From contig JAGHQL010000042.1 of the NCBI GenBank assembly GCA_020080175.1, positions 111,532-154,387 on the forward strand: a stretch of 42,856 nucleotides of DNA, given 5' to 3'. The position numbers and the translations under genes were made by a program. Positions within the stretch are counted from its first letter, which is position 1; every line of letters starts with the position of its first letter. Origin of the DNA: Glutinoglossum americanum. Taxonomy: Eukaryota; Ascomycota; Geoglossomycetes; Geoglossales; Geoglossaceae. Shown one piece after another: positions 1 to 18,390 of this stretch. A model generated the notes under the pieces. That model saw only the letters and a list, made by a program, of their open reading frames with translations, searched no databases and had not been told where the DNA came from.

Positions 1-135
1 TTCTTCCTTCGACCGACATCTTCCTCCTTTAACCAACGTCTTCCTCCTTCAACCAGCATCTTCCGCTTTCAACCAACGTCTTCCTCCTGCAGCCAACCTC
101 TTCTCCCTTCAACCAACATCCCCCTCACTCAACTC
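1..135. repeat. 20-bp minisatellite, about 6.5 copies, cut by the window edge
   Basis: Direct tandem repeat with consensus close to TTCCTCCTTCAACCAACGTC. Units start near positions 1, 21, 41, 61, 81 and 101, with a degenerate seventh. The plus strand is pyrimidine-rich. The period is not a multiple of three, so the array is unlikely to be coding. It runs off the left edge, so its full length is unknown. Confidence 0.85.
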
Positions 136-355
136 TTTCCTGCTACTGTTCACGCCTCCTTCCTGCCTCCATACAACAACCCACTGAACGGGAGTTCACT
201 CGTAGGAATTCGTCGGACGCGGATGTGAGACACCGCTTGTCTTGCCTCTCGGTCGGAACGGGTAGATCGGCGGCGGGGATGCCCGGTATTGGTGTGCGCT
301 TAGAGTCCGCCACGTGAGGTTTCATATGGCCTCGTGCCTTGACCCTCTGGGCCAG

Positions 356-416
356 GTAAGTGCCAAGTCCATCCCTTAGTATCTTGTCTTAACATATACT
401 AACACATGTTCACCAG
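356..416 (+). other. Orphan intron-like module (61 nt)
   Basis: Donor GTAAGT, branch-like ATACTAACA and acceptor CACCAG are in fungal spacing. No convincing coding exon could be read on either side. The branch region (TACTAACAC followed by TGTT) resembles the modules at 6799-6859 and 9103-9163, which suggests related decayed genes. Confidence 0.5.
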
Positions 417-881
417 ACAACGATAACAATAACGACAGCTCGCCGGGCTTCGTGTTGTGCAAGGACGAGACAGACACTACGTTTTGGGTGTCTATCTCTA
501 GCACACGCTAGTCCGATCCCCCTCCTGCGTTATCGACTGGCGCGGGTCATGCTGGGCCTTCCCGTTGGTCATACCGAACATCCTCTTGACTCGGATCGCC
601 GACCCAGAAGAGAGGAGAGCAGCTACTACGCTCTCTTCGTGCCGTGGAGTGAGCGATGTGGGATTACAAATCGCAATCCGAAATCACTGGCTCCATTCAG
701 CACTGTTGGGGGGGTATCCCGACTGGCCCTGCAGTCCGGGTGGAGGACGCCTAGTAGGCCAGGTCCGAGCTGTTGGTGTCCCCGATGCAGTTCCCAAGTG
801 TATCCTGGCTGGCCGTGGCGGATGCATCTGGTCGGGCTCTGCCGGGATGGCAGTGATAGCGCCGGTGGGCGCGGCGGGTGG

Positions 882-933
882 ACATTTGTTTGGGCCCAGA
901 TCCGCATGAGAGAATCTGGGCCCGAGCAAATGT
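882..933 (+). repeat. Inverted repeat, hairpin family 1, copy 1 (20-bp arms)
   Basis: Left arm 882-901 and right arm 914-933 surround a 12-nt loop (CCGCATGAGAGA). In plus-strand RNA all 20 positions can pair, two of them as U.G. A related hairpin sits at 3406-3445; the copies share the CCAGAT-CGCATGAG core and the following CAAATGTA. It lies 76 bp upstream of the intron-like module at 1009. It could be part of a small non-autonomous element or a structured RNA; no terminal duplication was found to decide. Confidence 0.8.
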
Positions 934-1008
934 ACAACCGCAACAATAGGCTCTGCGTCTGTGGTGGCGGCGGGGCTGCGGTGGCGGCGCCAGTGCGGTG
1001 AGGCCTCG

Positions 1009-1065
1009 GTAAGTATTCTGTATTCTTCTCCCGACCATCGCTTGTACTAATATATGTTTCTCTAG
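1009..1065 (+). other. Orphan intron-like module (57 nt)
   Basis: Donor GTAAGT, branch-like TACTAAT and acceptor TCTAG. The 5' part (GTAAGTATTCT) closely matches the module at 9103 (GTCAGTATTCT), so the two probably derive from a common ancestor. Flanking exons cannot be read. Confidence 0.5.
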
Positions 1066-1548
1066 GTAACCCTCTGGAGAGACTGGGTCCTGGCGATGCC
1101 GCAGCCAGCACAATCTCCGGTTGGCTGCCATCCTCGAACTTCTCATAACGAGACGACCTCCCAGCTGATCGGGGAGATCGGCCCGGCCGTGTCGGTCGCC
1201 CCGAAACCCTCCGAGGCTGGGACTTGGAGAACTTTAGAGAGCTCGCCCGGCTCTCCTCCATCCTCCCTGCACTACATATTCCGACTGCGAACGCCGTACG
1301 TCACCATCCGTCGTCCTGACCCGGCTTCATATGGATTCGACAACGACAATCCTGCGCTAGGTGTATCATCCAGGGAGCCTCGGTCCCGCAGCAGACCCTT
1401 CCCGGCGGCCCCGGGTGCCAAACACCAGGCCGACCACTCCCTCTACACCTCTCCGCGCCCACCGCCGTACCATCGTTGGTCGCAGCCGGCCTAGCCGAGG
1501 GATTGGAACTTCCTGTGGACCCCGCCACCTGTACGTCGGGGCCAGATC

Positions 1549-1599
1549 GTAAGTCACCACTGCCGAGAATAAATTCTCATGCTAACTAGTATATTACAG
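1549..1599 (+). other. Orphan intron-like module (51 nt)
   Basis: Donor GTAAGT, branch-like TGCTAACTAG and acceptor TTACAG. The preceding and following sequence could be exon remnants but show no recognisable domain. Confidence 0.45.
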
Positions 1600-1741
1600 G
1601 ATCTTGCTCACACAGACCCACCTTAACCTGAATCTCGCCTGAGGCTTTCTCAGTGTCCCCCCGGGGACGAGCGAGAGATATTATTTGAGTTGAACGCGTA
1701 CCCCGTGGGACGCCGAAGCACCCTTGAAACCCTACGATGTG

Positions 1742-2270
1742 CTATCCCGACGGCCTCCTCCGGCCATGGTTGGGCTATATCGGCGGCTTTGATACTGGCG
1801 ATGGGTGTGGTGAGTAGCGGGTCAACAGCGGCGACTGAGCCCAGAGAACAACACCGAAAGCCAGGGATAGGGGCTCCGCATCGCTAGGGATGGAGCCCAT
1901 CACACGGTCAGTGTACCGCACCGGCTGGTAGGTAATCGCACCTAATGGGGCTCGTACTGGGGTTGGCTGACTCAGACTCATACTAAAGTTGGCGGCGAAG
2001 GATCGAGCTAGATGGCCATGGACTCTGCGCTAGTCTCTGGCGATCCAACCTTGGTAAGACGGAAGCCTGCCGTGTCGCAACCTTCCACTTCTACCTGTCG
2101 CTCCGCTCCGCCATTCCTATCACCGGTTGAGCGGCATCGCAGCAGGATATCGCCCGAATTAACCCGCGACGAAGTAATTCCTGCTCGCAATCGTCGGTAT
2201 AGCCGAGCGGTGGGGCACTCCCCATCTCGCTGCCTCCTTCGGCCGTGTTTGGGCCATATCGGCGTCTTTG
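1742..2270. repeat. Diverged direct duplication of about 50 bp, 479 bp apart
   Basis: Segment 1742-1791 and segment 2221-2270 align without gaps. Over their last 40 bp, 34 positions agree by hand count (shared cores GCCTCCT, GGCC, ATATCGGCG and CTTTG). The sequence between them shows no recognised gene. Confidence 0.6.
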
Positions 2271-3345
2271 CGGCAGCCAATATGCGAGGTGAGGACTAGA
2301 GGTTCGAGAAATTTTGCGTCCCGGCACGTCTTATCATCGACTCTTCGATCCCGTCTTTAGGTACCGTCGGCTAAGCTAGGAGAAGGAAACGCGCGGAGGC
2401 GCGGACGCGGTGCGGGAGTCGGTTGCGTAGAGGAGACCGAGCAGCCGATGTGCGTGTGCTCCGGTAACCCTCGTCAGCGATTCAGGGGATCCTGGGGGGG
2501 CTGTCGAAAGGGCATGGGAGCCGGCTGTGGGAATTAGACAGCCAATGAGGGCACTCCTGGGCTGCAACCCGGTATCCCGATCCGAGCCCTTGGCGTTTTA
2601 TTCTCGACGCACTCCCTTCCCATGCATCTCCCGATCTACCTACCTCTTCATAGCTCCACAGTGTTGGTGGTTGGCCTCGACCTCGAATATCGCGAGTCTA
2701 GGACGGCTGGGATCCGGAGATATCGGAACCTTTCGCCTGTTCAAGTGCCAGCTCAGTCGCATTCGCCAAGTCCAGCCTTCTACGGTCGTCGTATGGTCCC
2801 CTGAGGCCCCGCACTCGATGGTGCATTCATTTGTTGCTTGTTCCCCGAACCGACACTCGAGGATGTCCCTATCGAAACTGACATTCACACGCACCTCCGG
2901 GGATTGCAGCATCCGTTCGAAACCCCTAGATCCACAACACCTTCCGTATTCAACTGATAACGATCTCTACAAATTCCAGCAAATTAGGCTCTCCGTCAGC
3001 CTGCTTGCTACTACCACCACTGTCTTATGCCGAAAGCCTCTCAGGCTCACAGCCCCTGGCCCAAAACGCTTTTCCCCATTGACTCCACGCCCTTATTGAC
3101 GCTTGATTCGACATACACCGCCCCAACAACCTTCACACGGTCCGCTCGAGATGCCCGCCCCACTGCCCGACTGCCGGCCCCACTCTCGTTATCCCTTCAC
3201 CCGAACCCCGGGGGGGGGGACGTGGTCGCTAACAGCCTTATGCCTAGCCGCACTGCCGTCAACACCTCCAATAGGTATACCTTCGAGCCGCCCTAACAGA
3301 TGAAGTGGAAAACCCTGGTGAGGCGTTGTGAGTTTTGTCTCCCAC

Positions 3346-3483
3346 CCTCCCCACGAACCCGGTGGGGAGGTTTGGGGGTAGCGGCGGATGGCTGGGCCGA
3401 TGGAGTCTGGGTCCAGATTCGCATGAGGGCGAGTCTGGACCCGGCAAATGTATGTGGGGGTCCTCGTGGGAGCCGAGGACCCC
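3346..3483 (+). repeat. Cluster of three consecutive hairpins; the middle one is hairpin family 1, copy 2
   Basis: Hairpin a: perfect 9-bp arms 3346-3354 and 3362-3370 (CCTCCCCAC / GTGGGGAGG), 7-nt loop. Hairpin b: 17-nt arms 3406-3422 and 3429-3445, 6-nt loop; 16 positions pair in plus-strand RNA, two of them U.G; this is the second copy of the element at 882-933. Hairpin c: perfect 10-bp arms 3457-3466 and 3474-3483 (GGGGTCCTCG / CGAGGACCCC), 7-nt loop. Three stems within 140 bp is unusual. A G10 run lies 135 bp upstream. Confidence 0.8.
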
Positions 3484-4494
3484 ATAGGTGTGGGGGTTGC
3501 CATGCTGAAGGCTGCCAGTGCACTGGCTGGCTAGTTCGGTCAGCTTCAGGCAGCCAAATCAGGAGATGTCTACATTCAGGCCATCAACGCCAATGCCAAT
3601 ACCCACTCATGCGCCAAGGCAGAAGCCAACCCAACCCTCGGGCTCCCAGCTGAGCTAAGGCTGGCCGTTTGTTCTTGTGTGGCGAGCACTGAAAGGTGCC
3701 TAATACACCGGGAGAGGATGGCATTAGCGCCCGGTGGAGTAGTGAAGGGCGATGTCTGGGACTAGAGATGGATCCTTTAGAAAGAGGAGGGAGAACTTGA
3801 ACTCCATAAGTGATATCCCACCGGATCTCATCCCTGAGCTGAGCCATTTGTATCGGAGGTTGCGGGCTAACATCCGTTGTTCGAAGCACACAGGCAGCGG
3901 GCGAGCCCTTCAGGCGCGCCGGGCCCAGTCCCTACAAAGCTGGGAGCCCGGTTTCGCTCATCACAGGTGCCCAAATTTCTGTCTGGACCCGCCGCCACGA
4001 AGATCACCAAAGGAGGGATTCAACTGCTCCCTTCCGGCCCCCCTCCATCCTTCTACCTCAAGAGATGAAAGAGGAGATAGATGGAGGGGGCAGGACGACG
4101 GAACCGCATGCCTCTGTCCTGCCCCCTCAAACATCACTCGCCCATGGTTCGTTCCCTCTGCGATCCCCTGCTGTCGTTGGCCGGGCGCTGTAGGCGGCTT
4201 CAAGGAGTGGCCGCTCGGGATCATGGAAAGGTTACCGGGGAAAGGGTCCTGCACGCACATCAGCGAAGACGAGACAGCTCTCCAAGAGGTCTCCCGGTGC
4301 AGGCGGAATGCGAAGGAGGAAAAGGGCCGCTTCCACCAGCCTTGGCAACATACACGCCTCGTCCTCGTCCTCGCCCATCACCCAAATCGGGGCTCTGCCC
4401 CCATCTCGGAACCAGACCCGAAAATCACTGGGTTCCGACGGGACGGCAACGCAAATACGCTAACGCTCTTTCCAGTTTGGTCTTCATTTGAAAC

Positions 4495-5510
4495 TCGACT
4501 ATCGATACCTCGGGAACAGGACCCTCACCCACACGCTCTCCAGCCGTGGTGAGTCCTGCAGCGAAAGGGATCACCAAGTTGTTTCTGTCAAGGATCTTCA
4601 AGCAATGGCGTAGGGGGGTAATATTGCTCCAATCGGAGCTTGTCCAACAAAAAACGCATCCTACGGGACACGGGTCGCGCCCGCCCATACTATCTGCTAT
4701 CGACTCGACTGCCTTGCCCATCCGCCCCAGGGCACCGCGCCACGAGCAGCCAGCCCCTCTCCTGCCACCCACTCTCCTCCTGCGCGTGGGGCATTCCGGG
4801 CTCGCTTCCCTAACCATAGCACCTACAATTTACTCAAGAACTCATTTCCCACGAGTCCCGGCGGTAGCATGGCAATAGGGGGCCAAAAACCTCGAGGCTT
4901 GTCGAGTAGCCCGCACCTGTCAAACAAGCAGGCTCCGCGAACTATTTGGGGGAGAACCGAGCGACGCCAACCCGTCAACCTCTCCCTCGGCGACGAACCC
5001 CTCGAGGACACTCGGCAACCGACGCCTCGGGGGCAGAACCCTCATCCGCACGCCCTACGGCTGGGGTGGGTCCCGCAACGAAAGGAGATCAACAACTCGC
5101 TTTCGTCGAGACCTATCCAGCAATGGAACAATCGGAGCTTGTCCAACGAAAACCACATCCCACGAGACATGGATCGCGTTCCCCCGGCATCCTCCACCCC
5201 CGGCTGCGCCGCCTTGGCCATCCCTCCCCAGGGCGTCGTGCGGCGGCCAACCAGCCCCTCCGCTCTTGCCCTTTGATCTCCCCATCCAACGGGACATGGA
5301 CCGCATCTCCCAACATCCTCCACCATCGCTCCACTGGAGACTGATCCCGTCTACCTGCCGTATTTCTGCCAAGGTATGACGGGATACGGGCGTTTTGGGG
5401 GATGTAATGCATGCGGATATTCTCCACCATCGACCCGACCGCCTTGGCCATCTCCCCCCGGGGCGCCGCACGACGAGCAGCTAGCTCCTCTGCTCCTGCG
5501 CCTCGTTCTT
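4495..5510. repeat. Segmental duplication, three diverged copies (about 250, 230 and 100 bp)
   Basis: Copy 1 covers about 4495-4790, copy 2 about 5005-5280 and copy 3 (partial) about 5403-5510. The clearest match is 4631-4680 against 5130-5178, both opening AATCGGAGCTTGTCCAAC and ending near ATCGCG/GTCGCG. The tails share GACTGCCTTGCCCATC-like and GCCTTGGCCATC cores followed by CACGAGCAGC/ACGAGCAGC-like sequence. Frames differ between copies, so no protein can be defended; it could be a fragmentary non-LTR or host gene duplication. Confidence 0.65.
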
Positions 5511-5795
5511 CCATTCAAATTCTTGGCCTCGCAGATGCACGCACCCCAACAGTTCTCTACACGTGATCACCGCAACTCCTACTCCGCAACAATCGCAAAC
5601 TCTTGCACCTAGGCTTCTTTGCCAGTGCAAACCAGCGTTTCGGTTGCAAGGATCCTCTACTTGTCTTTATATTCTGTTCTGTCTGGCCGGGCTTCGTTGT
5701 GCGCCTCGGTCCGGGCTCGCAGCCGGCGACTCTTCAGCGAAAAGCACCAAAAGTAACCTGGTGTGTGGCGTCGAGGGATCTGTGCCTGGTGTTTG

Positions 5796-5861
5796 GTGAG
5801 TTCCATAGTTATCTTTCCTGCGATGGCATGCAGAGTGCTTACGAGTGGTTTTCTCTCACAG
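5796..5861 (+). other. Orphan intron-like module (66 nt)
   Basis: Donor GTGAGT, weak branch-like GCTTACG and acceptor TCTCACAG. This is less convincing than the others because the branch motif is non-consensus. No exon domain could be recognised. Confidence 0.35.
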
Positions 5862-6246
5862 TGTTGTAGTTATATTATGGTTGAGGTGGGGCCGTACAAG
5901 CGGCACGTGCTTGGCGCTCTCTTGGCCGGGCAGGATCGAGCAGGTGGTGCATCCGCCTTCCGTGCCAGACGACCAGCAAGAGTGCCCGGGACCTATCCCG
6001 GTCCGCGGTGGTTGGGTGGAGCTATTGTGATCTCGGCTTGCTCTTGGGATGCATTGATGTGGTTATTTTTTCCCTTTGTAGGCTGGCATTCGGACTCTAG
6101 GAATATCGGCTCCCTCGGGCGAGAGGTGGTCGAACTGTCAGGCACCTCTCAGTGCCGGCGTGTTGGTGGGCCGTCTTCTAGGTGGCCAGTCGACCTATCG
6201 TGTGCTCCTCAGATCCGGCCTATAGAGAGCCGAGCCATGGAGAGAC

Positions 6247-6452
6247 CTACCGCCCGCCCCGAAAATTCGGCGGGCCGGTCCCGTTCTCGAAGACGGCCAA
6301 CCGTCCCGCGTTCCTCAGGCTCGGCAGGCGCAAAACTAGTCCCTGGGGGAATCTACTGCCTGCTCCCCAGACCCGGCGGGCTGGTACTCGAAGAAAGCCA
6401 ATGGCATCACCTACTCACCGTCCCACCGCCTGTCCATTAGGCTCGGCGGGCG
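6247..6452. repeat. Tandem duplication, unit about 106-122 bp, with an older degenerate copy upstream
   Basis: The unit begins CTACCGCCCGC (6247) and CTACTGCCTGC (6353), continues with CCCGGCGGGCTGG-like sequence and a CTCGAAGA(C/A)-GCCAA stretch, and ends with TCGGC(A/G)GGCG at 6321-6330 and 6443-6452. A third, weaker copy may start near 6193 (CGACCTATCG). An indel changes the period between start and end of the unit, so it is not a coding repeat. Confidence 0.6.
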
Positions 6453-6798
6453 GGGGCCTTGGCCCTGAAGAGATCTACCAGGCAATGGAGGATGCTAGAA
6501 GCTGATGGGCTCCATGCCCGACTTGCCTGATTTGCTCTGCTTGCAACACCCCAAGAGGTGGAGGCTGGGGTGATCCAGCACCAAGAGGTGCGGAGCCCTT
6601 TGTACATGCACCATGGGCCGTAAAAATGGTGTACCCGCGGACCACGACGACATCAAGCATGCGGCTGGTGTCCGTTCCCCGGAATCGGCGGGCGGGGAGT
6701 CGGTCCTCGAAGGCGGCGTCCCCTTCCCAGCTATGCTTTGATGGTTGGTGGCGCTGGCGTGGCTGAGGGTGGTATCTCACCAACCCTTTCGGGATCCG

Positions 6799-6859
6799 GT
6801 AGGCTATATCTTCCTGGATTGCTTATGTATGAACACGCTTTACTAACATCCCCGGCTAG
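6799..6859 (+). other. Orphan intron-like module (61 nt)
   Basis: Donor GTAGGC (non-consensus), strong branch-like TTTACTAACATC and acceptor GGCTAG. Same length and same branch core as the modules at 356 and 9103. Confidence 0.4.
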
Positions 6860-7563
6860 TCAGACATCTGGGTCCCTAAGTGGCTAGTAATTCGAGACAA
6901 CCCTATCCACCGTTTAGCGGGATGGTGTGTTCCGCAGGCCGCAGTCTGTACTTATGGGTCATTCAACCAAGAACTAACATCCAACAAACAACCGAGCTTC
7001 AGCAGAATCCGTCAGCACCGGGGCGGTCGGCGCCCACAAAACCCCCAAGCCCGAACTCGTCTTCGGCTACCGTACCCTCAGTCTTCAGGCCCAGGCGATC
7101 CGTCCATGACTGAACTCTCACACATCTCCCCCGGCGGTCTCCACCCCTTATCGTCCTCCAGCTACAACCCCCGCTGGAAATTGATTTGCTCGCGACGGAG
7201 AGCCGATCTCGCGCTCTTCGTTTTTTGGCCTTTTACTCGCCTGGTTGGGGTGATATGTTCTCATCATTCTCACTCTTACGGTAGCAGGCACCAAGCAAGG
7301 GATGGGCTGGAGGGGTTTATTAGATCACTTATACGGTTCGGGCCTTTCCATATCCCCCGACGCCAAATTATCTCAGGGCTGAGATATTATCAACAAACTA
7401 CATAATGACGACCCAGCCCGACACCGGATGCCAGGGTGGTCACCGGCCGAAGCCGGGGCAAGCGTAAGAGATACTCCAGATACCAGGATGGGCACATCGG
7501 TCGGCCGGGGGTTTCCAACTAGACGGACCCAGCACGTCTCACCTCCTGACAACGCTACGCTTG

Positions 7564-7604
7564 CCCCCGGCGCCGTTGCGGTATATCCGCAACGGCGCGG
7601 GGGG
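7564..7604 (+). repeat. Inverted repeat, hairpin family 2, copy A
   Basis: Arms 7564-7581 and 7587-7604 (18 bp, 17 paired, one G/G mismatch) flank a TATAT centre. The core GCCGTTGCGG-TATA-CCGCAACGGC is shared with copies at 8999-9055 and 11567-11621. The next intron-like module starts 20 bp downstream. Confidence 0.85.
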
Positions 7605-7623
7605 TGGTAGGATAGTGGTTCCG

Positions 7624-7684
7624 GTACGTAATGAGTTATCCGTCTGATATTATATGCATGTCGGACTGACGGTTTTCCCAATAG
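7624..7684 (+). other. Orphan intron-like module (about 61 nt)
   Basis: Donor GTACGT, branch-like GGACTGACGG and acceptor CAATAG (or CAG three bases later, 7687). It lies directly after hairpin copy A. No exon could be read. Confidence 0.4.
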
Positions 7685-8099
7685 CAGGTGTTCGCTCCCT
7701 CGGGGAGCCTACCAGATAGCTGGTGGGCTGGTGAGCGAGAAATTCGGTCCGGTCCGCGAATCGGTCGTAGAGGCGGCATGTGCGCCATTTCCAACGACAC
7801 TACCGGCAAAGAGACGGCAGCACCGACGCTGGGCGGAACGCCCCACCCGTTGTTAGGCCAGGGACACGCACACCCATACTGTCTACTAGGCGATCCTTTT
7901 GGGCGGAGGGGTCGAGACACCAAATGGTTCCTGGCTGCTTTCCTACCCACCCACCGACGAGCGCCTCAAGAACACAACTAGATCAAATCCCGATCACCTC
8001 CCTCAAAATGCTACATACCCCCCAGTCGGAGTTTCCCGGAGCACATGCCCTCTATCCAGGCACCGGCTCCCTAATTCTCACCACCATTAACGCGGCGGC

Positions 8100-8397
8100 C
8101 AGAGATTACGAGAAATTGCGTGTGGTACCGAAACAAATCGTGGCAGAGACCGGATCAAAGCCGCTGTCCATCGGCTACCCATCTTGCCTCCTGCGCATCC
8201 AGTACCGGATGCTGCCTTCCATCTCAAAGCTGCCGAACAAGGAGTTCTACGGGGGAAGGCTCATCGATCACTCCTCAACCGCTCACAACTCGCGTCCGTT
8301 GGCCGCAGTCTTTTCTAATTTCCTCAAATCCGCCTATGACATACGGTATACGAATAGGTTGATGGCACACCCTAACCCTTGTCGGGGAACCGGTTAA
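8100..8397 (+). pseudogene. Decayed fragment of a UPF1-like superfamily 1 helicase (AAA_12 region)
   Basis: One frame reads LLRIQYRMLPSIS, then PNKEFYGGRLID, at about 8191-8271. This matches the hallmark (L)xxQYRMxPxISxFPxxxFYxGxLxD block of DNA2/NAM7/UPF1-like helicases, in the C-terminal RecA-like domain. Fungal genomes carry many such proteins, often in NFX1-like or nucleotide-dependent families. The Walker A and DEAA motifs expected several hundred residues upstream are absent, and the frame closes at 8395-8397 before motifs V-VI. I read it as a fragment of a formerly larger gene; the flanking sequence does not continue it in any frame. The motif identification is fairly sure; which helicase family member it came from is not. 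Confidence 0.6.
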
Positions 8398-8998
8398 AGA
8401 CCACAAGTGGTCTATGTGGGATGAGGATGGGGCCTACGAGAACGTGGATATCCTCATTGGATTCCAAGATTGTAGGTGGACTTGAGGCTGTGGGACGTGG
8501 AAACCAATGGATTTCCGCATTGTCGGTGGGTCTGGCGCTCAGCGTCCAAGAAGGATGGCCAAGGATTATCTCGGGCCCTGGAATGCCCAACTTCCCTTCT
8601 CCGCCCACACTACCTCTTCGGCGCACTATCTTCTAGGCAATCTAGTAACCGCAACCAGTAAGGGTCTCCAGCGACGCGACCAGCAGGGTGCCGAATTCGA
8701 TTCTCTCGCGGCTCCGCCTGTTCTTCGTATCTGCGGCAGAAAGTCCGCCTAAAAACGACAACGGCAACAGGCCCTGGCTACCGAAATTATCGCATCCCAG
8801 GCGTTTGCGTCCATCCGCCGTCCAGTTTGCCCCGATTCCCCGTTCTCTACCGCACAGAGCCTGCTGCGATACTTAGTCAGGGCCCACCCCAAATCTCTCG
8901 CCCCGCGGCGACAATGACAGACAACGCCGATATCCGGGGCGCTGTGACTTGTTGCCGCCCAGTTCGCTCTCGTTTTCGATATACTCGAGGTGAGGGCA

Positions 8999-9055
8999 TC
9001 CCCGCCCCCCTTGCGCCGTTGCGGTATATTCGGGACGGCGCGAGGGGGGTGGGGA
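8999..9055 (+). repeat. Inverted repeat, hairpin family 2, copy B
   Basis: Arms 8999-9024 and 9030-9055 flank a TATAT centre. In plus-strand RNA 25 of 26 positions can pair, four of them as G.U; one G/G mismatch. The core GCGCCGTTGCGGTATA is shared with copies A and C. A good intron-like module begins 48 bp downstream. Confidence 0.85.
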
Positions 9056-9102
9056 GGTGGATGTTTCAACCCCCGACGATGTAGCAGTGTGCGTGGGGAC
9101 AG

Positions 9103-9163
9103 GTCAGTATTCTATCCTGCCTTCCAGCGGATCGTATATACTAACACTTTGTTCCCCTCCTAG
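9103..9163 (+). other. Orphan intron-like module (61 nt)
   Basis: Donor GTCAGT, branch-like TATACTAACAC and acceptor CTCCTAG. It resembles the modules at 356-416 and 1009-1065, supporting a repeated, spliced, now decayed gene family. Confidence 0.45.
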
Positions 9164-9399
9164 ATGGTCGCTAGCGCCACATCACCCTGCACTCAAGCAA
9201 CTGAAATGCTGGCTTGTCACTAGAAACCTTTATCTGCCGGCTATGTGTGTGCCGGTAGGCGAGGCATTTCTCCGGGACTATCGCCTCCCAGTATGCGTTT
9301 GCCATGTGTCCGTTCCCTCTAGACGCCGAGTGGGACGCTCTCAGCCCTCACTAGGTCTCCAAGTCTTCCCGAGCCCCACTCACGACTACTCCAAGGGGC

Positions 9400-9427
9400 C
9401 CCACTAACGGGGGCGGAAATTAGTGGG
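9400..9427. repeat. Short perfect inverted repeat (8-bp arms)
   Basis: CCCACTAA (9400-9407) pairs with TTAGTGGG (9420-9427) across a 12-nt purine-rich loop. Isolated; no T-tract follows and no role can be assigned. Confidence 0.5.
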
Positions 9428-10545
9428 CAGGCCCACAGTCAGAAAGCCGCCCCTCGGAACCTATCAAAGACGCGATAGATTTACTATCTCCGATCGGACG
9501 TTCCTCTAATGCTGTCGGGGTAAACAAGGAGTCTTAACACACAGCTACTAAGGGCACAGAGTCGGAGCCCCGAGGCGCTCCACAAGCCTTCTGTTTCACC
9601 CTCTCCCAGCATCTCGGGATATAACCAGATACACCGGGGACATTTCGAGCCTTGGTTGTATAGGCGTTTGGAAGCACCCTAGCGGCGAGGCCATTGTACA
9701 TGCCTAGAGAAGTATCAGGGAGCCAGAGAGGGCTATTCCACCAAGCTTAGGGCAAACAAAAAGAGCGAGCAAACGACCCACGCGGGGAGGACCGGAGAGC
9801 AGATCCTCCTGAATGCCACTTTCCGCGAATTCGCTACCCGATTCCGCCAACGACGGTACCCCCAGCAGAAATAACTCTAACAACGACGCCCCAAAGAGCA
9901 GTATCCCCAACGACTCTAGCAGCGAATATTATTATCTCTGATGATATCTCCAACCACAATACCTCCGACGTCGATGCCGGCTACGAACTTAGTGCTTATT
10001 GGAGCCGGACCGCACGCACACCACAAGATATCCACCCAAATCCGGTCTGTGGGTTCCGCCGCGCCGCTACCTCGCGGAATATGCAGACTGGAATACGAGA
10101 ACACACCCGGCTTGTCACTCCCCGCCGAGATGCACCAGAAGCACCATCTCGGGGGTACCGTTAATGATCGGTCCCCTTAGCGGCTTAGGCCTGGCCAAGC
10201 ATGCCAGTGGGAAAGGGTGGAACGCGCCTTTCTGGTGAGAGGCATTTCCTCCACCCATCTGGTGCCGGGCACCGATTTCCCGACAGGAGGCCCAATCCAA
10301 CGAACCGCTATCCCCCACCGGTCCGCTGGGCTCCATCCCCATTCATTCCTCCCCCGCCTCGATTTCGCGCAACCTGCCACAATTGCGCGCGAAGTATCTT
10401 CGACCCTTCCATGCCGCGGGTGGGCGGTTACGGAGCCCCACCGAACTCCGTCGAGTGGGGAGCTTCGCAGGCCCAGCGCCGTGCGAAACACGGGACAATC
10501 CGACAGCCCGAGTCCCTGCGGACTCGGTGTCGGATGAGAACCATG

Positions 10546-10860
10546 GTGGCCTGGGGGTTTGGCGTCCCACCAATCCGGCGCCGGGTGGGGGTGCGCGATT
10601 ACCAGACGGTTCGGGGTTCGCAGATCCAGCCCAGAGTAAGGTGCGAGTGGCCCGGGGGTTTGGCGTCCCACCAATCCGGCGCCGGGTGGGGGTGTGCGAT
10701 TACCAGACGGTTGGGGGCTCGCAGGCCCAGCCCAGAGTAAGGTGCGAGATGGCCCGGGGGTTTGGCGTCCCACCAATTCGGCGCCGGGTGGAGATGCGCC
10801 AAGACCAGGTAATTGGGGGTTCGCAAACCCAGTGTAGGATGAGAGGTGCTGCAGCGTAGC
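10546..10860. repeat. 101-102-bp tandem repeat array, three full copies with degenerate flanks
   Basis: Units start at about 10546, 10647 and 10749. Each carries GGGGGTTTGGCGTCCCACCAA, a CGGCGCCGGGTGG core, AGACCAG/CCAGACGG-like sequence and a CGCA-CCAG(T/C) tail. A degenerate unit precedes (about 10420-10545) and a partial one follows (about 10859-10900). Copies 1 and 2 are nearly identical; copy 3 is more diverged. The period is not divisible by three and the open frames shift between copies, so it is not a coding repeat. Confidence 0.85.
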
Positions 10861-11369
10861 GGTTGGGTGTTCCGCAGATCCGGGCCCGCATACCGATACG
10901 ACCACTGATGGCGAAAAAGCCGAACCCAGCCAAGCGGAAACAGCCGGTAACCCACTACGAGGTGGAATGAGCTATGGCGTCCGGGCCGCCACGCGCGTAG
11001 GGACTCGAGAGAAGCCCATCCCTACTCAACCCAGTCTAATTCCCCAACAAAGGGTGGGAGTCTACGAGAGGGAATACCGCCCGTCCGCCCCAGATACGGC
11101 AATTAGAGCCAGCACAGTCGATCGGCTAGGATTAGGGCGAGAGTATACCAGGGTGGGGAAGCGTAAGAGGGACGCCACAAAAGTGCGAGCGAGTAGCTCG
11201 AGAGGAGAAGAAACGAAAGAAACGCAGGGTTAAAGAAGTGCGGGAGAGGAACCTGTGGATGAGACAGGCAGCCAAGGGCTAAGAAGCAGAAAGGCCCGAG
11301 CAGGCAGGCCCCCAAAGGTGTTACGAGGCCATCGTAGAGAGGAAAAAGATGGGAGGGGAGGACGGCGAA

Positions 11370-11478
11370 CCACCCGCCTCCAATCCAGCGCGGCGCCTCG
11401 GGTTCCCACCCATCTCCAGTCCAACGAGGCGGTTCGGATTCCCACCCGCCCCAAGGCCAACGAGGCACCCGGGATTCC
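11370..11478. repeat. Degenerate 36-bp tandem repeat, three copies
   Basis: Units begin CACCCGCC (11371), CACCCATC (11408) and CACCCGCC (11443) and carry CAA-GCG/GAGGCG and GG(G/A)TTCCC cores. The minus strand reads as repeated Trp-Glu-Pro-rich 12-residue units, but the unit length varies (37 and 35 bp), so I do not call a protein. Confidence 0.6.
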
Positions 11479-11566
11479 CGGATCCCCATAGCCCTATCTT
11501 CCCAAAAGCGCCTAACCCCTTTCCCTCCAGAAACCGCCGATACCTACAAAACACACCAACCGCTCA

Positions 11567-11621
11567 TCCTTCCCCCCTCGCGCCGTTGCGGTATACCCGC
11601 GACGGCGCGAGGGGGGAAGGA
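11567..11621 (+). repeat. Inverted repeat, hairpin family 2, copy C
   Basis: Arms 11567-11591 and 11597-11621 flank a TATAC centre. All 25 positions can pair in plus-strand RNA, one as U.G; 24 are Watson-Crick. This is the best-preserved copy and matches copy B beyond the core (CCCCCCT-GCGCCGTTGCGGTATA). No intron-like module follows it. Confidence 0.9.
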
Positions 11622-12440
11622 GAGGGCTAAGTCCCGTCCGCCACCTTCTGGTGCGAGATGCCTGCATACGGTTAAACGGCAACCACGGCGTCGACACCCG
11701 CATATTAGTCAAGCTCGAAGGGTCACCAGCGCACCGGAGTCCGGCTCGAGACCTAGATCCCGGGCAGCGAGGGCTTCTTGACGCGGCAACGTTCCAACGC
11801 TCGAACTTTAGGACCGAAAGGGGGGAGCATATCGCTCGTATAGGTCCAACTGCGTGGCCCATCACGCCTTGGAGGTGCAACGGGCGCCAGAGGGAATTGT
11901 GTCCCTGTCTGGAGTCCGAGGTGGCGGGCGGTGCGAAAATAGTGGGTCGGGAGGCGCGAGATGGGGAGTAATTCTCCTGTGCCATCTCCCGGTGCCTGGC
12001 GATGGGCATCCATCCCAGCCACCTCTCACCCCTGCACCCTTCGCCCGCGCCATTGCCCTCAGTCAACTACCTACCTCTTCGATAGTCTTCCTTTAGCAGT
12101 TCGGCTCTAGGTTGAGCTGGCACACCGTCGCTTCTGCCGCCCGGATACTCCCGCCCTGGGGGTGTGCTGTGGAGGTGATTTCTATGCAGTGGAAGTGGTA
12201 GCTAGTCATTAGTCATTCTCTTGGCAGGGGTAGCTTACCTACCGCGCCCACGACCTGCCTAATATAATCGTCCTTCTACCTACCGACGAACTCTTACCTC
12301 CACAGTATCTGCCCGGGGAGTTCCAGATCCTCCCCACAACATATCGCGAGCGGCCACATATGTGTTCGTGCGGGAGATCAAGTGCGCTCTACTCCAAGCG
12401 CACGTTGGGCGGGCCGCCATTCCTGTGCCCGCCCGACTTT

Positions 12441-12527
12441 GGGCAGTTTGAAGGCACTGAGCTGTGCAGTACTCCAACTTCATACTTCTTGCTCCGCACT
12501 GCATAGCTCGGTGCCTTCGAACTGCCC
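12441..12527 (+). repeat. Single-copy 30-bp hairpin, fully pairable as plus-strand RNA
   Basis: Left arm 12441-12470 (starts GGGCAGTTTGAAGGCACTGA) and right arm 12498-12527 (starts ACTGCATAGCTCGGTGCC) flank a 27-nt loop. Checked base by base: 27 Watson-Crick pairs and 3 G.U pairs, no mismatch, no bulge. As minus-strand RNA the same three positions would be A.C mismatches. The size and shape resemble a small-RNA precursor, but a MITE relic or recent inverted duplication is equally possible. It lies 323 bp upstream of the 2EXR-like gene, on the same strand. Confidence 0.85.
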
Positions 12528-12849
12528 TTCACCTAAACGTCGATTCTGGGGGTCCGCGTTTGCTCCGCTTTGTGTGGGCGGACATCGATCGTTCCGCCCG
12601 CAAACACCATCGTGCGTGGGCGGCCAGAACACAGGAGTGGGAGGTGGTAATTCTGGCGGCGGTGGCGGGTTGGGTAGTTCTGGGGGATGTATTGGTAGGC
12701 GGATTAATAGGAGAGTAAGGAGGACCCCTATGCGAGAGAGTATGAGAGATGCAAACAAGCTCTGGCGTGACCACGAACTCGGGTCACGCCCACACAAACC
12801 GATCCGATCCTGCATTTAGATTCTTAACACTAACAAACTCGCCAACACC

Positions 12850-13605
12850 ATGGAAGCAACCCACCGCCACGATCTGCCCGGACTATCCTTCCTCTCTCTT
12901 CCTCGTGAGATCCGAGATGAGATCTACTCTCTCGCCCTAAACATTCCGGCCTACAACCCCACAACGATGATACACATCCATCCTCGCCCCACTTCCGTCG
13001 GCTACTGGAACTCAGGCCCCCCCTATTTCTACAACGCCGTCAACTGCCAGCCATTCGCACCAAACACTGCTTTGCTCCGTGCCTCCCGGCTCATCTCCGC
13101 CGAGGCCGCAGGCCTCCTTTACACAAAACCGATATTCCATTTCGGCGATCTGGATGCCTGGGAAGTCCTTCATCTCTTCCTCCTCCGAATCGGCGAGTCG
13201 GGCCGCGCTAGACTCCACGAGATCCACATCCACGCTCCAACCCCAGAGCATTACGTCCGCACCCCGCGAGGCACGCTTGTCCTAGAATCCGTGGCCACTA
13301 ATTTCTGGCCCACGACGGACATGCCCAGGGAGGTGGATCCGGTGCTGAGAGAGACACTGGATATGCTGGCGGAGCTATCCACGGGAGGAGGCGGATTAAA
13401 GCGATTGCAATTGCGAATTCTGGGAAGGTATCCGATAGGCAGGCTTGAAGTGGTCAGGGAGGCCCTTGCGGATGCACCGGCGGAGGTGGTATATGATACC
13501 CAGTGGTGTGAGAACAGGGCGGAGGTGGAGGAGGCGCTGAGGGGGTGGGCATCGCTCGCTAGAGGACGGAGGGACAGAGGGGGTGGCAGCAACAGGTGGT
13601 GCTAG
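12850..13605 (+). CDS. 2EXR/F-box-like domain protein, intact single exon
   Basis: Encodes 251 residues. The N-terminal segment at about residues 12-30 (LSFLSLPREIRDEIYSLAL) is the signature (FxxLPxEIRxxIYxLAL) of the 2EXR/F-box-like proteins that are greatly expanded in Pezizomycotina. The rest is consistent with that family: a region ALLRASRLISAEAAGLLY around residues 75-92, where these proteins typically have a helix with LL-v-r-i-eaa--ly, and a Gly/Arg-rich tail. Function is unknown; some relatives are thought to act as F-box-like adaptors, but no partner can be inferred here. The start fits a good context (ACACCATGG) with CAC/ACA-rich leader. No intron is needed. It is the only clean coding unit in the first 16 kb. 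Confidence 0.85.
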   Translation: MEATHRHDLPGLSFLSLPREIRDEIYSLALNIPAYNPTTMIHIHPRPTSVGYWNSGPPYFYNAVNCQPFAPNTALLRASRLISAEAAGLLYTKPIFHFGDLDAWEVLHLFLLRIGESGRARLHEIHIHAPTPEHYVRTPRGTLVLESVATNFWPTTDMPREVDPVLRETLDMLAELSTGGGGLKRLQLRILGRYPIGRLEVVREALADAPAEVVYDTQWCENRAEVEEALRGWASLARGRRDRGGGSNRWC

Positions 13606-13851: not shown

Positions 13852-14039
13852 CAGCTACTGCACCACCACACCGACCCCAACTGCCCGACGACATGGCTCA
13901 GATCCCCGAGGGTTATCAGCGTCTCGATGGCAGCGACCGGTATCGGGCAAAGACAGTGAGGTTAAGGATCAGACTCAAAGCCTTCCATCTATTGCAGTAG
14001 CACCGCGGTGGACTTCACCGACAATCCAACAATGCCTGA
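13852..14039 (+). pseudogene. Truncated 5' duplicate of the sedolisin gene at 16705
   Basis: From 13892 the sequence reads ATGGCTCAGATCCC, then GGGTTA(T/C)CAGCG(T/C)CTCGATGGCAGC, the same as the intact gene at 16705 onward minus one short in-frame repeat (the SQIPQG segment). Similarity extends about 40 bp upstream of the ATG (CCAGC...CGACATGG) and downstream to the ATGCCTGA segment equivalent to residues 54-57 of the intact protein. Deletions and a premature stop separate the two matches, so it cannot make a peptidase. It ends exactly where the probable solo LTR begins, which suggests the element inserted into the copy. No convincing sedolisin sequence was found beyond the LTR. Confidence 0.75.
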
Positions 14040-16576: not shown

Positions 16577-16704
16577 GGCCCCTCTATTACCTTCATTGGG
16601 AGATCAGCAAGCCGTTCTTGCAACTTTTCAACAAATACTTGCTGTGGTAATCTGCCTTGCACCAGCATACCGCTATTCCACCCATACCTCAACCGTTCCA
16701 CGAC

Positions 16705-18390
16705 ATGGCTCAGATTCCCCAGGGTTCTCAGATCCCTCAGGGTTACCAGCGCCTCGATGGCAGCAGCCGGCATCCCCAACAATCCGCGACGTTGCTTGGA
16801 CCTGCCGATGCCAACGAGAACGTTACGGTTACCATTGTGCTACGACGTCGCCCAGATGGACCACCGATGCCTGACCCCGAGTCGTATGTTAATACGCCAC
16901 CCTCTCAACGCCAGCGCTTGCCCGCAGATGAGTTTGCAGCTCTATATGGGGCATTACCTGCGGACATCGATAGGGTGACGGATTTCGCCAACTCTAACGA
17001 CCTTACGATTGTCGAATCCAATGCCGCACGGCGCACAGTCGCCCTTTCCGGGACGGTGGCCCAGTTTAACCAGGCATTTGCGGTGAACCTGTGTAACTAC
17101 GAACACGAAGTTGTACGCCGCCCCGGTGATGACCCCCAAGCCGAGACCTATCGCGGTCGAGACGGCTACATTCATGTCCCCGAAGATCTATCGGAGAGTA
17201 TCGTCGGGGTCTTTGGTCTTGATAACCGCCGCATCACAAAGCGCAACGGCGGAGATCCTCCCAACACGACAACCATAACGGTTCCACAGATCATGTCACT
17301 TTACAGATTCCCAACAAACTCTGCTGCAGGGCAGACCATCGGCATCTTTTCTGAAAACGGTTACTTGACGAGCGACATCACGGAGTACTACGCCACACTA
17401 CCTGGCCTCACAGCCCCCACCCTTACAGATGTTTCGATCGATGCGGACAACGACGGCACTCCCGATTCCGAAACTACTCAGGATATTTGCATTGCAGCTA
17501 CTGCTGCGCCGGGTGCCTCAATTGCAGTATACTTTACGAGAAATTCCCAAAAAGGATGGGTCGACCTAGTGCAGAGGGTCGCCCACCCAGACCCAGGCGA
17601 TCCTATCTGCTCAGTCCTCTCCTCCAGCTACTATGTCTCAAATGGCGATGATAAAAAAACCCTCGCTGACGAGGGTGTCAGCAGAGCTTGGGTTACAGCG
17701 TTGTCAATGGCATTTCGCGATGCGGCTGTGCAGGGTGTTACAGTTTGTATCGCATCCGGCGACACCGGCACAGAGTCGAAAGTTGGCGATGGCAAAGCTC
17801 ATGTTCAATACCCAGCCAGCGATCCATGGATACTGTCGGTTGGCGGAACGACGGTCGGCAATGTCAGCGGCGCGTCATTCAGCGAATACGTTTGGAACGA
17901 CACATTTTTCGGCGGCATCCCAGGCGCAACGGGTGGCGGCATCAGCGACTTTTTCCCGCTGCCTCCCTACCAAAGGAGGGCGGGCGTTCCCCCCTCGCTG
18001 AACGACAGGCACTCAGGACGCGGAGTCCCCGACGTGGCGGCCAACGCGAGCCCAAACAGCGGCTTCCCCGTGATCGTAGGCGGCGCCCCGGCCGTGGGCA
18101 ACGGAACGAGCGCATCGGCGCCGCTGTGGGCCGGGCTCATCGCCGTGATCAACGCGGCGATCGGGCACAACGTCGGATTCGTAAACCCCGCACTCTATAC
18201 GCTGGGCTCGTCCGCATTCCGGGATATCGTTGGAGCCCCGGGCCCCGCGGATAATGGGCTGAAAGGCGTGGCTGGGTATCCCGCTCATCCCGGGTGGGAT
18301 GCGTGTACGGGCTGGGGCAGCATCAACGGCACAGCGCTACTTGCGGGTCTACGGCGATTATTCTCCCCGGGCCATCATGATCCGCACTGA
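16705..18390 (+). CDS. Kumamolisin-type sedolisin (serine-carboxyl peptidase, family S53)
   Basis: Encodes 561 residues with no intron. Sedolisins are acid-active endopeptidases with a Ser-Glu-Asp triad. All key residues are visible: Glu256 and Asp260 in SETTQD, oxyanion Asp353 in SGDTG, nucleophile Ser469 in GTSASAP, and the C-terminal Ca-binding signature (Asp507-Ile508 and GWDxCTGWGSxxG, Asp532). Residues about 33-180 are the Pro-kuma_activ prodomain, opening LGPADANENVTVTIVLRRRP, a typical bacterial kumamolisin start. I chose ATG 16705 because the duplicate at 13892 begins at the same Met and upstream codons lack an ATG. Unlike most fungal secreted sedolisins (TPP1/SED type) it has no signal peptide. 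Bacterial-type sequence, no intron and no signal peptide suggest acquisition from bacteria, but the partial duplicate in flanking fungal DNA argues that it is resident, not contamination. Predicted active; location of the product is unclear. Confidence 0.92.
   Translation: MAQIPQGSQIPQGYQRLDGSSRHPQQSATLLGPADANENVTVTIVLRRRPDGPPMPDPESYVNTPPSQRQRLPADEFAALYGALPADIDRVTDFANSNDLTIVESNAARRTVALSGTVAQFNQAFAVNLCNYEHEVVRRPGDDPQAETYRGRDGYIHVPEDLSESIVGVFGLDNRRITKRNGGDPPNTTTITVPQIMSLYRFPTNSAAGQTIGIFSENGYLTSDITEYYATLPGLTAPTLTDVSIDADNDGTPDSETTQDICIAATAAPGASIAVYFTRNSQKGWVDLVQRVAHPDPGDPICSVLSSSYYVSNGDDKKTLADEGVSRAWVTALSMAFRDAAVQGVTVCIASGDTGTESKVGDGKAHVQYPASDPWILSVGGTTVGNVSGASFSEYVWNDTFFGGIPGATGGGISDFFPLPPYQRRAGVPPSLNDRHSGRGVPDVAANASPNSGFPVIVGGAPAVGNGTSASAPLWAGLIAVINAAIGHNVGFVNPALYTLGSSAFRDIVGAPGPADNGLKGVAGYPAHPGWDACTGWGSINGTALLAGLRRLFSPGHHDPH

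Follow-up and report, generated by a model that had tools for sequence, protein, structure and literature searches.

Why do the two arms of imperfect hairpins in a fungal genome differ almost only by changes that would read as G.U pairs in RNA of one strand? This question is raised by 42,856 nucleotides of Glutinoglossum americanum (contig JAGHQL010000042.1, positions 111,532 to 154,387), referred to here as the window, an apparently gene-poor stretch. An earlier note had counted 12 transition-type differences between the arms of five stems (882-933, 3406-3445, 8999-9055, 11567-11621, and 12441-12527), all of which give G.U and none A.C when the plus strand is read as RNA. We obtained the same 12:0 (2, 2, 4, 1, and 3, respectively), although setting stem limits with G.U allowed works in favor of G.U. 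The single transversion-type mismatches listed in that note were also found (T3406.C3445, one G.G in the hairpin at 7564, and one G.G in that at 8999), and two further ones, both G.A, lie in 874-941, beyond the limits it had drawn. Furthermore, the 12 differences are not independent, because 882 and 3406 are copies of one hairpin while 7564, 8999, and 11567 are copies of another.

With G.U and A.C scored alike over positions 1-12850 of the window, the ratio of G.U to A.C was 9:0 at a transition score of -1 (strict), 10:2 at -0.5, and 14:2 at 0 (loose), with two-sided binomial P values of 0.004, 0.039, and 0.004. The two A.C, C902.A913 and A12471.C12497, sit at loop ends, inside what had been drawn as loops, and the former arises if its stem is carried on into the loop. 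Across the analysed stretches of two contigs, that of the window (C255) and C260, the remaining stems gave 12:8, 20:16, and 84:76 in the same scan (P 0.50-0.62), a set that takes in the C260 copy of hairpin B described below. Among these other stems, those with two or more transitions all of one kind numbered 1 of 26 at score 0, 1 of 9 at -0.5, and 2 of 5 at -1, and the C260 copy of hairpin B was the sole such stem present at every setting. It could be argued that chance and counting are at work, with few independent events, common descent, and post hoc selection: the symmetric counts give P values of 0.004 to 0.039, the copies are related, and two A.C enter once the limits are loosened. We consider this account quite unlikely, since separate events counted by hand over all copies amount to 19:2 (10 in family B, 6 in family A, and 3 in 12441, versus the two A.C; P 2.2e-4), and since the orientation and intron results below are independent of the G.U to A.C event count. 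A related palindrome array (C255:104565-104906) is mixed, with nine G.U and five A.C, and adding it to the hand count gives 28:7 (P 5e-4).

The hairpins are of three types. Three copies of hairpin A were found, all on C255: copy 1 (874-941, plus strand) has 28-nt arms, a loop at 902-913, G.U at 889.926 and 891.924, and the two G.A, and copy 2 (3406-3445, plus strand) has two G.U and some pairs that are changed on both sides relative to copies 1 and 3. Four copies of hairpin B were found, three on C255 and the fourth on C260. Copy 1 (7561-7607, plus strand) has its core at 7564-7604, the loop TATAT, one G.G, and three outer G.U that appear when G.U is allowed; copy 2 (8999-9055, plus strand) has four G.U and one G.G; copy 3 (11567-11621, plus strand) has 24 Watson-Crick pairs and one G.U. 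These copy numbers are lower bounds because BLAST with copy 1 of hairpin A retrieved itself alone, missing two copies that a pattern search added. The third type (12441-12527, plus strand) has 30-nt arms, three G.U, and a 27-nt loop, and BLAST, a search able to miss diverged copies, reported no second copy of it. Stem length ranges from 14 to 30 pairs, and all six stems, judged by eye, fold as single stem-loops without secondary stems or large duplex loops.

We found that compensatory changes in the stem of family B exceed chance. Pairing is kept in 93% of 100 cells and both-side changes occur at 6 of 25 pairs, and none of 500 shuffles reached either value; four of the six both-side changes fall within columns 6-12, an outer part of the stem in which the flanks differ and the alignment is loose. 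The same cells hold 12 G.U, no A.C, and seven transversions, the 12:0 falling at nine pairs, and the covariation partly depends on the G.U count because its cells include those same G.U. Family A shows the same trend, yet not above shuffles (146 of 500). Part of the loop is constant in each family (TATAY in B, CGCATG in A), and the stems of B are very GC-rich. Covariation in the stem together with a constant loop segment recalls the structured fungal ncRNA motifs identified through comparative genomics in PMC5640933; unlike those motifs, the hairpins here are known from one genome, and no Rfam family matches the window at its gathering score. The section list of that study names no GC-rich hairpin preceding a splice site.

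The earlier note had offered a second explanation, strand-biased C-to-T change. Such change on the plus strand, through deamination of the non-template strand, could yield each G.U from a G-C ancestor, and RIP was considered beside it. Strand-biased change is contradicted by repeat copies of the same zone, which differ by C/T 217 times and by A/G 238 times, and by hairpin B, which has seven C/T-only and seven A/G-only columns, yet no A.C. For two pieces of the zone, the RIP product index is 0.72 and 0.78 and the substrate index 1.29 and 1.11; by the usual cut-offs these values mean no RIP, which was rejected. We regard strand-biased C-to-T change as highly improbable. A point against a plus-strand RNA is that folding across the zone gives this strand no advantage: for 100-mers, the mean z is -0.43 on the plus strand and -0.41 on the minus strand, and the mean MFE is -28.6 versus -30.3, the minus strand being the stronger (Wilcoxon P 0.02).

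A third account is palindromic DNA without an RNA role, either foldback- or MITE-like elements or quasi-palindromes from template switching, that decays neutrally and shows a G.U excess by small-sample accident. MITE and foldback elements are inverted repeats whose copies lie in either orientation and whose arms accumulate both kinds of difference. Families A and B likewise consist of inverted repeats within a repeat-rich zone, other stems of the two contigs fit this account (e.g., C260:110537-110676, which is mixed with four G.U and three A.C), and so does the mixed palindrome array. The hairpins appear to differ from such elements in that the A and B copies identified on C255, six in all, are on the plus strand, 5-12 nt separate their arms, and transition differences are almost only G.U (12:0 in B, one A.C in A), though the copies are few. 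Template switching makes and maintains hairpins with compensatory changes, according to PMC8794818, but a preference for G.U over A.C would not be expected from it alone. Given the 12:0 in B and the single orientation on C255, we hold this account to be possible, on the unlikely side.

Five intron-like stretches of 57-61 nt were found on the plus strand, all five low in GC, compared to one of four on the minus strand; the scan retains the lowest-GC start per 3' end on both strands alike. These lie at 356-416 (61 nt, GC 0.39, with the branch-site-like TACTAAC), 1009-1065 (57 nt, GC 0.37, beginning 67 nt past hairpin A copy 1), 6799-6859 (61 nt, GC 0.44), 7624-7684 (61 nt, GC 0.41, 19 nt past the core of hairpin B copy 1), and 9103-9163 (61 nt, GC 0.46, 47 nt past hairpin B copy 2). 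Three of the six hairpins thus have their end 19-67 nt upstream of an intron-like stretch (random placement P 2e-4 within 70 nt and 0.012 within 300 nt); the motif and the cut-offs for distance (70 nt) and GC were set after inspecting the data. Hairpins 3406, 11567, and 12441 have no intron-like stretch in the 300 nt downstream, and on C260 a distance of 294 nt separates the copy of hairpin B from one whose GC is 0.49. A looser intron pattern gave five stretches on the plus and four on the minus strand (shuffle mean 1.5, maximum 4). A sixth stretch, at about 1531-1599, fits the looser pattern only, and none of the listed hairpins ends immediately upstream of it. The six stretches resemble one another weakly (P < 0.05 for 3 of 15 pairs, best 0.007), and their origin as one repeated family was rejected. 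Global alignment of the hairpin-intron flanks revealed no conserved exon. The association of repeated inverted sequences with spliceosomal introns recalls the symmetric stwintrons and introner-like elements of Hypoxylaceae, as described in PMC8469720; there the inverted repeats are part of the intron, whereas here the hairpins fall outside the intron-like stretches and precede the putative 5' splice site.

In the exon-like stretch 417-1008, all three plus frames are interrupted by stops. Among 15 of 52 zone ORFs (at least 100 residues) scanned with Pfam, one passed its family cut-off, a 40-residue AAA_12 match at 8179-8298 on the hairpins' strand that is likely a gene relic, and two were sub-threshold; a coding origin was rejected. 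A tRNA search found none, and eight sub-threshold Rfam matches in 800-12600 fall on both strands, mostly to generic miRNA models (best 35 bits, 76 needed). A viral-collection scan with a 16-base word returned 25 stretches, which were taken for chance matches by estimate rather than computation. In the genome, Piwi (PF02171) has seven matches, six over the cut-off and one below; apart from the latter, three of the seven have stops that were read through. Both Dicer_dimer (PF03368) matches are over the cut-off; judged at the level of domains, the genome appears to carry Dicer and Argonaute. Criteria for fungal miRNA-like and hpRNA loci, as given in PMC9757828, are a single stem without secondary stems or large duplex loops, small RNAs with precise ends that derive exclusively from the strand of the hairpin, and Dicer and Argonaute in the genome. 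The strong single stem-loops and the Piwi and Dicer_dimer domains here are like those loci, while the two multi-copy families and the very GC-rich B stems are unlike them.

We suggest, with a probability of roughly one half, that the stems are kept by selection for plus-strand RNA. The proposal of selection on a folded plus-strand RNA, made in the earlier note, thus gains from the covariation in B, from the mixing of G.U and A.C in other stems, from the orientation of six copies, and from the intron-like stretches after three hairpins; it is held back by the few copies, by family A being non-significant alone, and by the 9:5 array. Under selection for plus-strand RNA, the stems would have been born as inverted duplications, perhaps via template switching, types A and B would have been copied locally, and B would also have reached a second contig. 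Changes preserving plus-strand pairing would have survived, G.U steps coming before full compensations, and most A.C-making changes would have been lost. In a published study of RNA genes (PMC8794818), G-U or U-G intermediates occur in 78.5% of two-step compensations. At least three hairpins would lie within putative exon sequence, 19-67 nt ahead of a 5' splice site. Their likely use would be to supply a duplex within a transcript that is spliced and probably non-coding, either as a substrate for the apparent RNA interference proteins of this genome or as a processing signal. There is a slim chance that, in a gene-poor zone, two unrelated hairpin types have each come to sit directly upstream of 5' splice sites in non-coding transcripts of the plus strand, hairpin and splice site forming one RNA module (e.g., an exon cut by Dicer or controlled by splicing) that spreads along with the zone repeats. 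If selection for plus-strand RNA is the right reading, differences between arms would by themselves show which strand is transcribed and that hairpins act at the RNA level, even for assemblies that lack RNA data, and the locus would contribute a family of hairpin RNAs absent from Rfam. The method, in which G.U is compared with A.C under symmetric stem limits and with other stems as control, is applicable to any assembly. On C260, an unrelated stem (145831-145927) is also all G.U, 3:0, at the strictest setting.

The earlier note had counted 12 transition-type arm differences in five hairpin stems, all of them G.U and none A.C on plus-strand RNA, and we obtained the same count with G.U permitted (2, 2, 4, 1 and 3 G.U in the stems at 882, 3406, 8999, 11567 and 12441). 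Since permitting G.U skews stem limits, we repeated the count with equal scores for G.U and A.C. We found that G.U:A.C in window 1-12850, the repeat-rich zone that bears the hairpins, was 9:0, 10:2 and 14:2 at transition scores of -1, -0.5 and 0, respectively, with both A.C (902.913 and 12471.12497) located at loop ends. In the remaining compared sequence the ratios were 12:8, 20:16 and 84:76; the comparison covered the contig (C255) whose positions 111532-154387 form the window, minus its N run at 107720-111531, plus positions 70001-148594 of a second contig (C260), approximately 1% of the genome. Among zone stems with at least two transitions at score 0, three of five were all G.U and the other two had one A.C apiece. 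Single-kind stems outside the zone made up 1/26 at score 0, 1/9 at -0.5 and 2/5 at -1; the one recurring at all three scores, C260:98932-98982, is a copy of hairpin B, and the additional one, C260:145831-145927, appeared at -1 only. A foldback at C260:110537-110676, with 59-nt arms and mixed differences (G.U 4, A.C 3), resembles a decaying MITE.

Hairpin B occurs at 7564, 8999 and 11567 and at C260:98935, and neither BLAST nor a 29-letter pattern with three mismatches found a copy beyond these four. Hairpin A occurs at 874, 3406 and C255:104477. Every one of the six A and B copies identified on C255 has plus-strand orientation. The A pattern had two further matches on other contigs, which we take as chance because the reversed control also matched once. 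BLAST with the copy at 874 returned only itself, so diverged copies escape this search, and the single-copy status of the 12441 stem, for which BLAST found no second copy, is not firm.

We found standard pairs in 93 of 100 cells of family B and both-side changes in 6 of 25 pairs, and none of 500 shuffles was as high for either. Shifting the partner by 1-3 columns lowered pairing to 48-62%, a comparison in which the unshifted structure has an advantage since it was derived from the same sequences. The cells comprised 81 Watson-Crick, 12 G.U, 0 A.C and 7 transversion pairs; four of the six both-side changes fall in the loosely aligned outer stem, and those in the core are columns 17-49 and 30-36. 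Family A (33 Watson-Crick, 7 G.U, 1 A.C, 1 transversion) shows C-G, U-G and U-A forms at three pairs over three copies, and covariation among these three sequences did not exceed shuffles (146/500). Palindromic DNA originating by template switching can also make compensations, as one published account describes for hairpins (PMC8794818), but we would expect no preference of G.U over A.C from it.

Strand-biased C-to-T change, the other option of the earlier note, found no support. Between repeat copies in the zone we counted 217 C/T and 238 A/G differences (11 repeat pairs, two of them hairpin B copies that supply 4 and 3 of the differences), and family B has seven columns with only C/T and seven with only A/G differences; such evenness is not what strand-biased change would produce. 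RIP indices showed no rise in the zone.

We scanned for intron-like stretches with the motif GTNNGY, then CTAAY or CTGAC, then YAG. On the plus strand of window 1-12850 it marks five stretches of 57-61 nt (GC 0.37-0.46; 60-mer mean 0.586); of the four that it marks on the minus strand, a single one has low GC. A stricter motif gave two plus and no minus stretches (shuffle expectation 0.02), and a looser one five and four (1.5). Three of six hairpins stop upstream of an intron-like 5' end: that at 874-941 by 67 nt, the core at 7564-7604 by 19 nt and that at 8999-9055 by 47 nt; the other three have no intron-like stretch within 300 nt. Under random placement this proximity has P = 0.0002 at 70 nt, a limit picked post hoc (0.0016 with either side allowed), 0.002 at 150 nt and 0.012 at 300 nt. 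Among the literature titles listed, none describes such hairpins ahead of splice sites, which is not proof of absence in print. Folding of the whole zone was no stronger on the plus strand than on the minus.

Judging from sequence, we give roughly even odds that the hairpins would be stems of a folded plus-strand RNA, one of the two options in the earlier note. This option matches the G.U bias, the family B covariation, the shared orientation of the copies and the splice-like sites close by, and it is based on three copies of A and four of B.

The genome (317 contigs, 25.77 Mb) encodes Piwi and Dicer_dimer domains by domain search and 2EXR-, pro-kumamolisin- and But2-type proteins by Pfam; together with its size and the short intron-like stretches, these are consistent with a filamentous fungus. 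From C255:69922 to the N run there are only three ORFs of at least 200 residues. Long ORFs in window 1-12850 lie within GC-rich sequence, and among the 15 of 52 scanned by Pfam one exceeded the cut-off: a forty-residue AAA_12 match (8179-8298, plus) between the first two B copies, probably a gene relic. Segments 13866-13944 and 16678-16774, 2.8 kb apart, are 80-85% alike; since the right one lies at the start of a pro-kumamolisin protease ORF, the left may be a relic copy.

The GC-rich zone also holds diverged tandem arrays at window 10546-10849 (101-bp unit) and C255:105048-107587 (longer units). The N run C255:107720-111531, directly left of the window, may be an assembly gap; it adjoins tandem units that carry the hairpin B 5' core (GGCGCCGTTGCGG). 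An array at C255:104565-104906 has five units spaced 92 or 74 bp. Every unit bears a palindrome of 28 nt, of the type TACATTTGCTYGGGCCCRAGCAAATGTA, that is similar to the outer arms of the hairpin at 874-941; the array's differences are mixed (G.U 9, A.C 5 across 12 pairs per unit). Shortly past the hairpin at 3406-3445 is a perfect 10-bp stem, GGGGTCCTCG / CGAGGACCCC, at 3457-3483.
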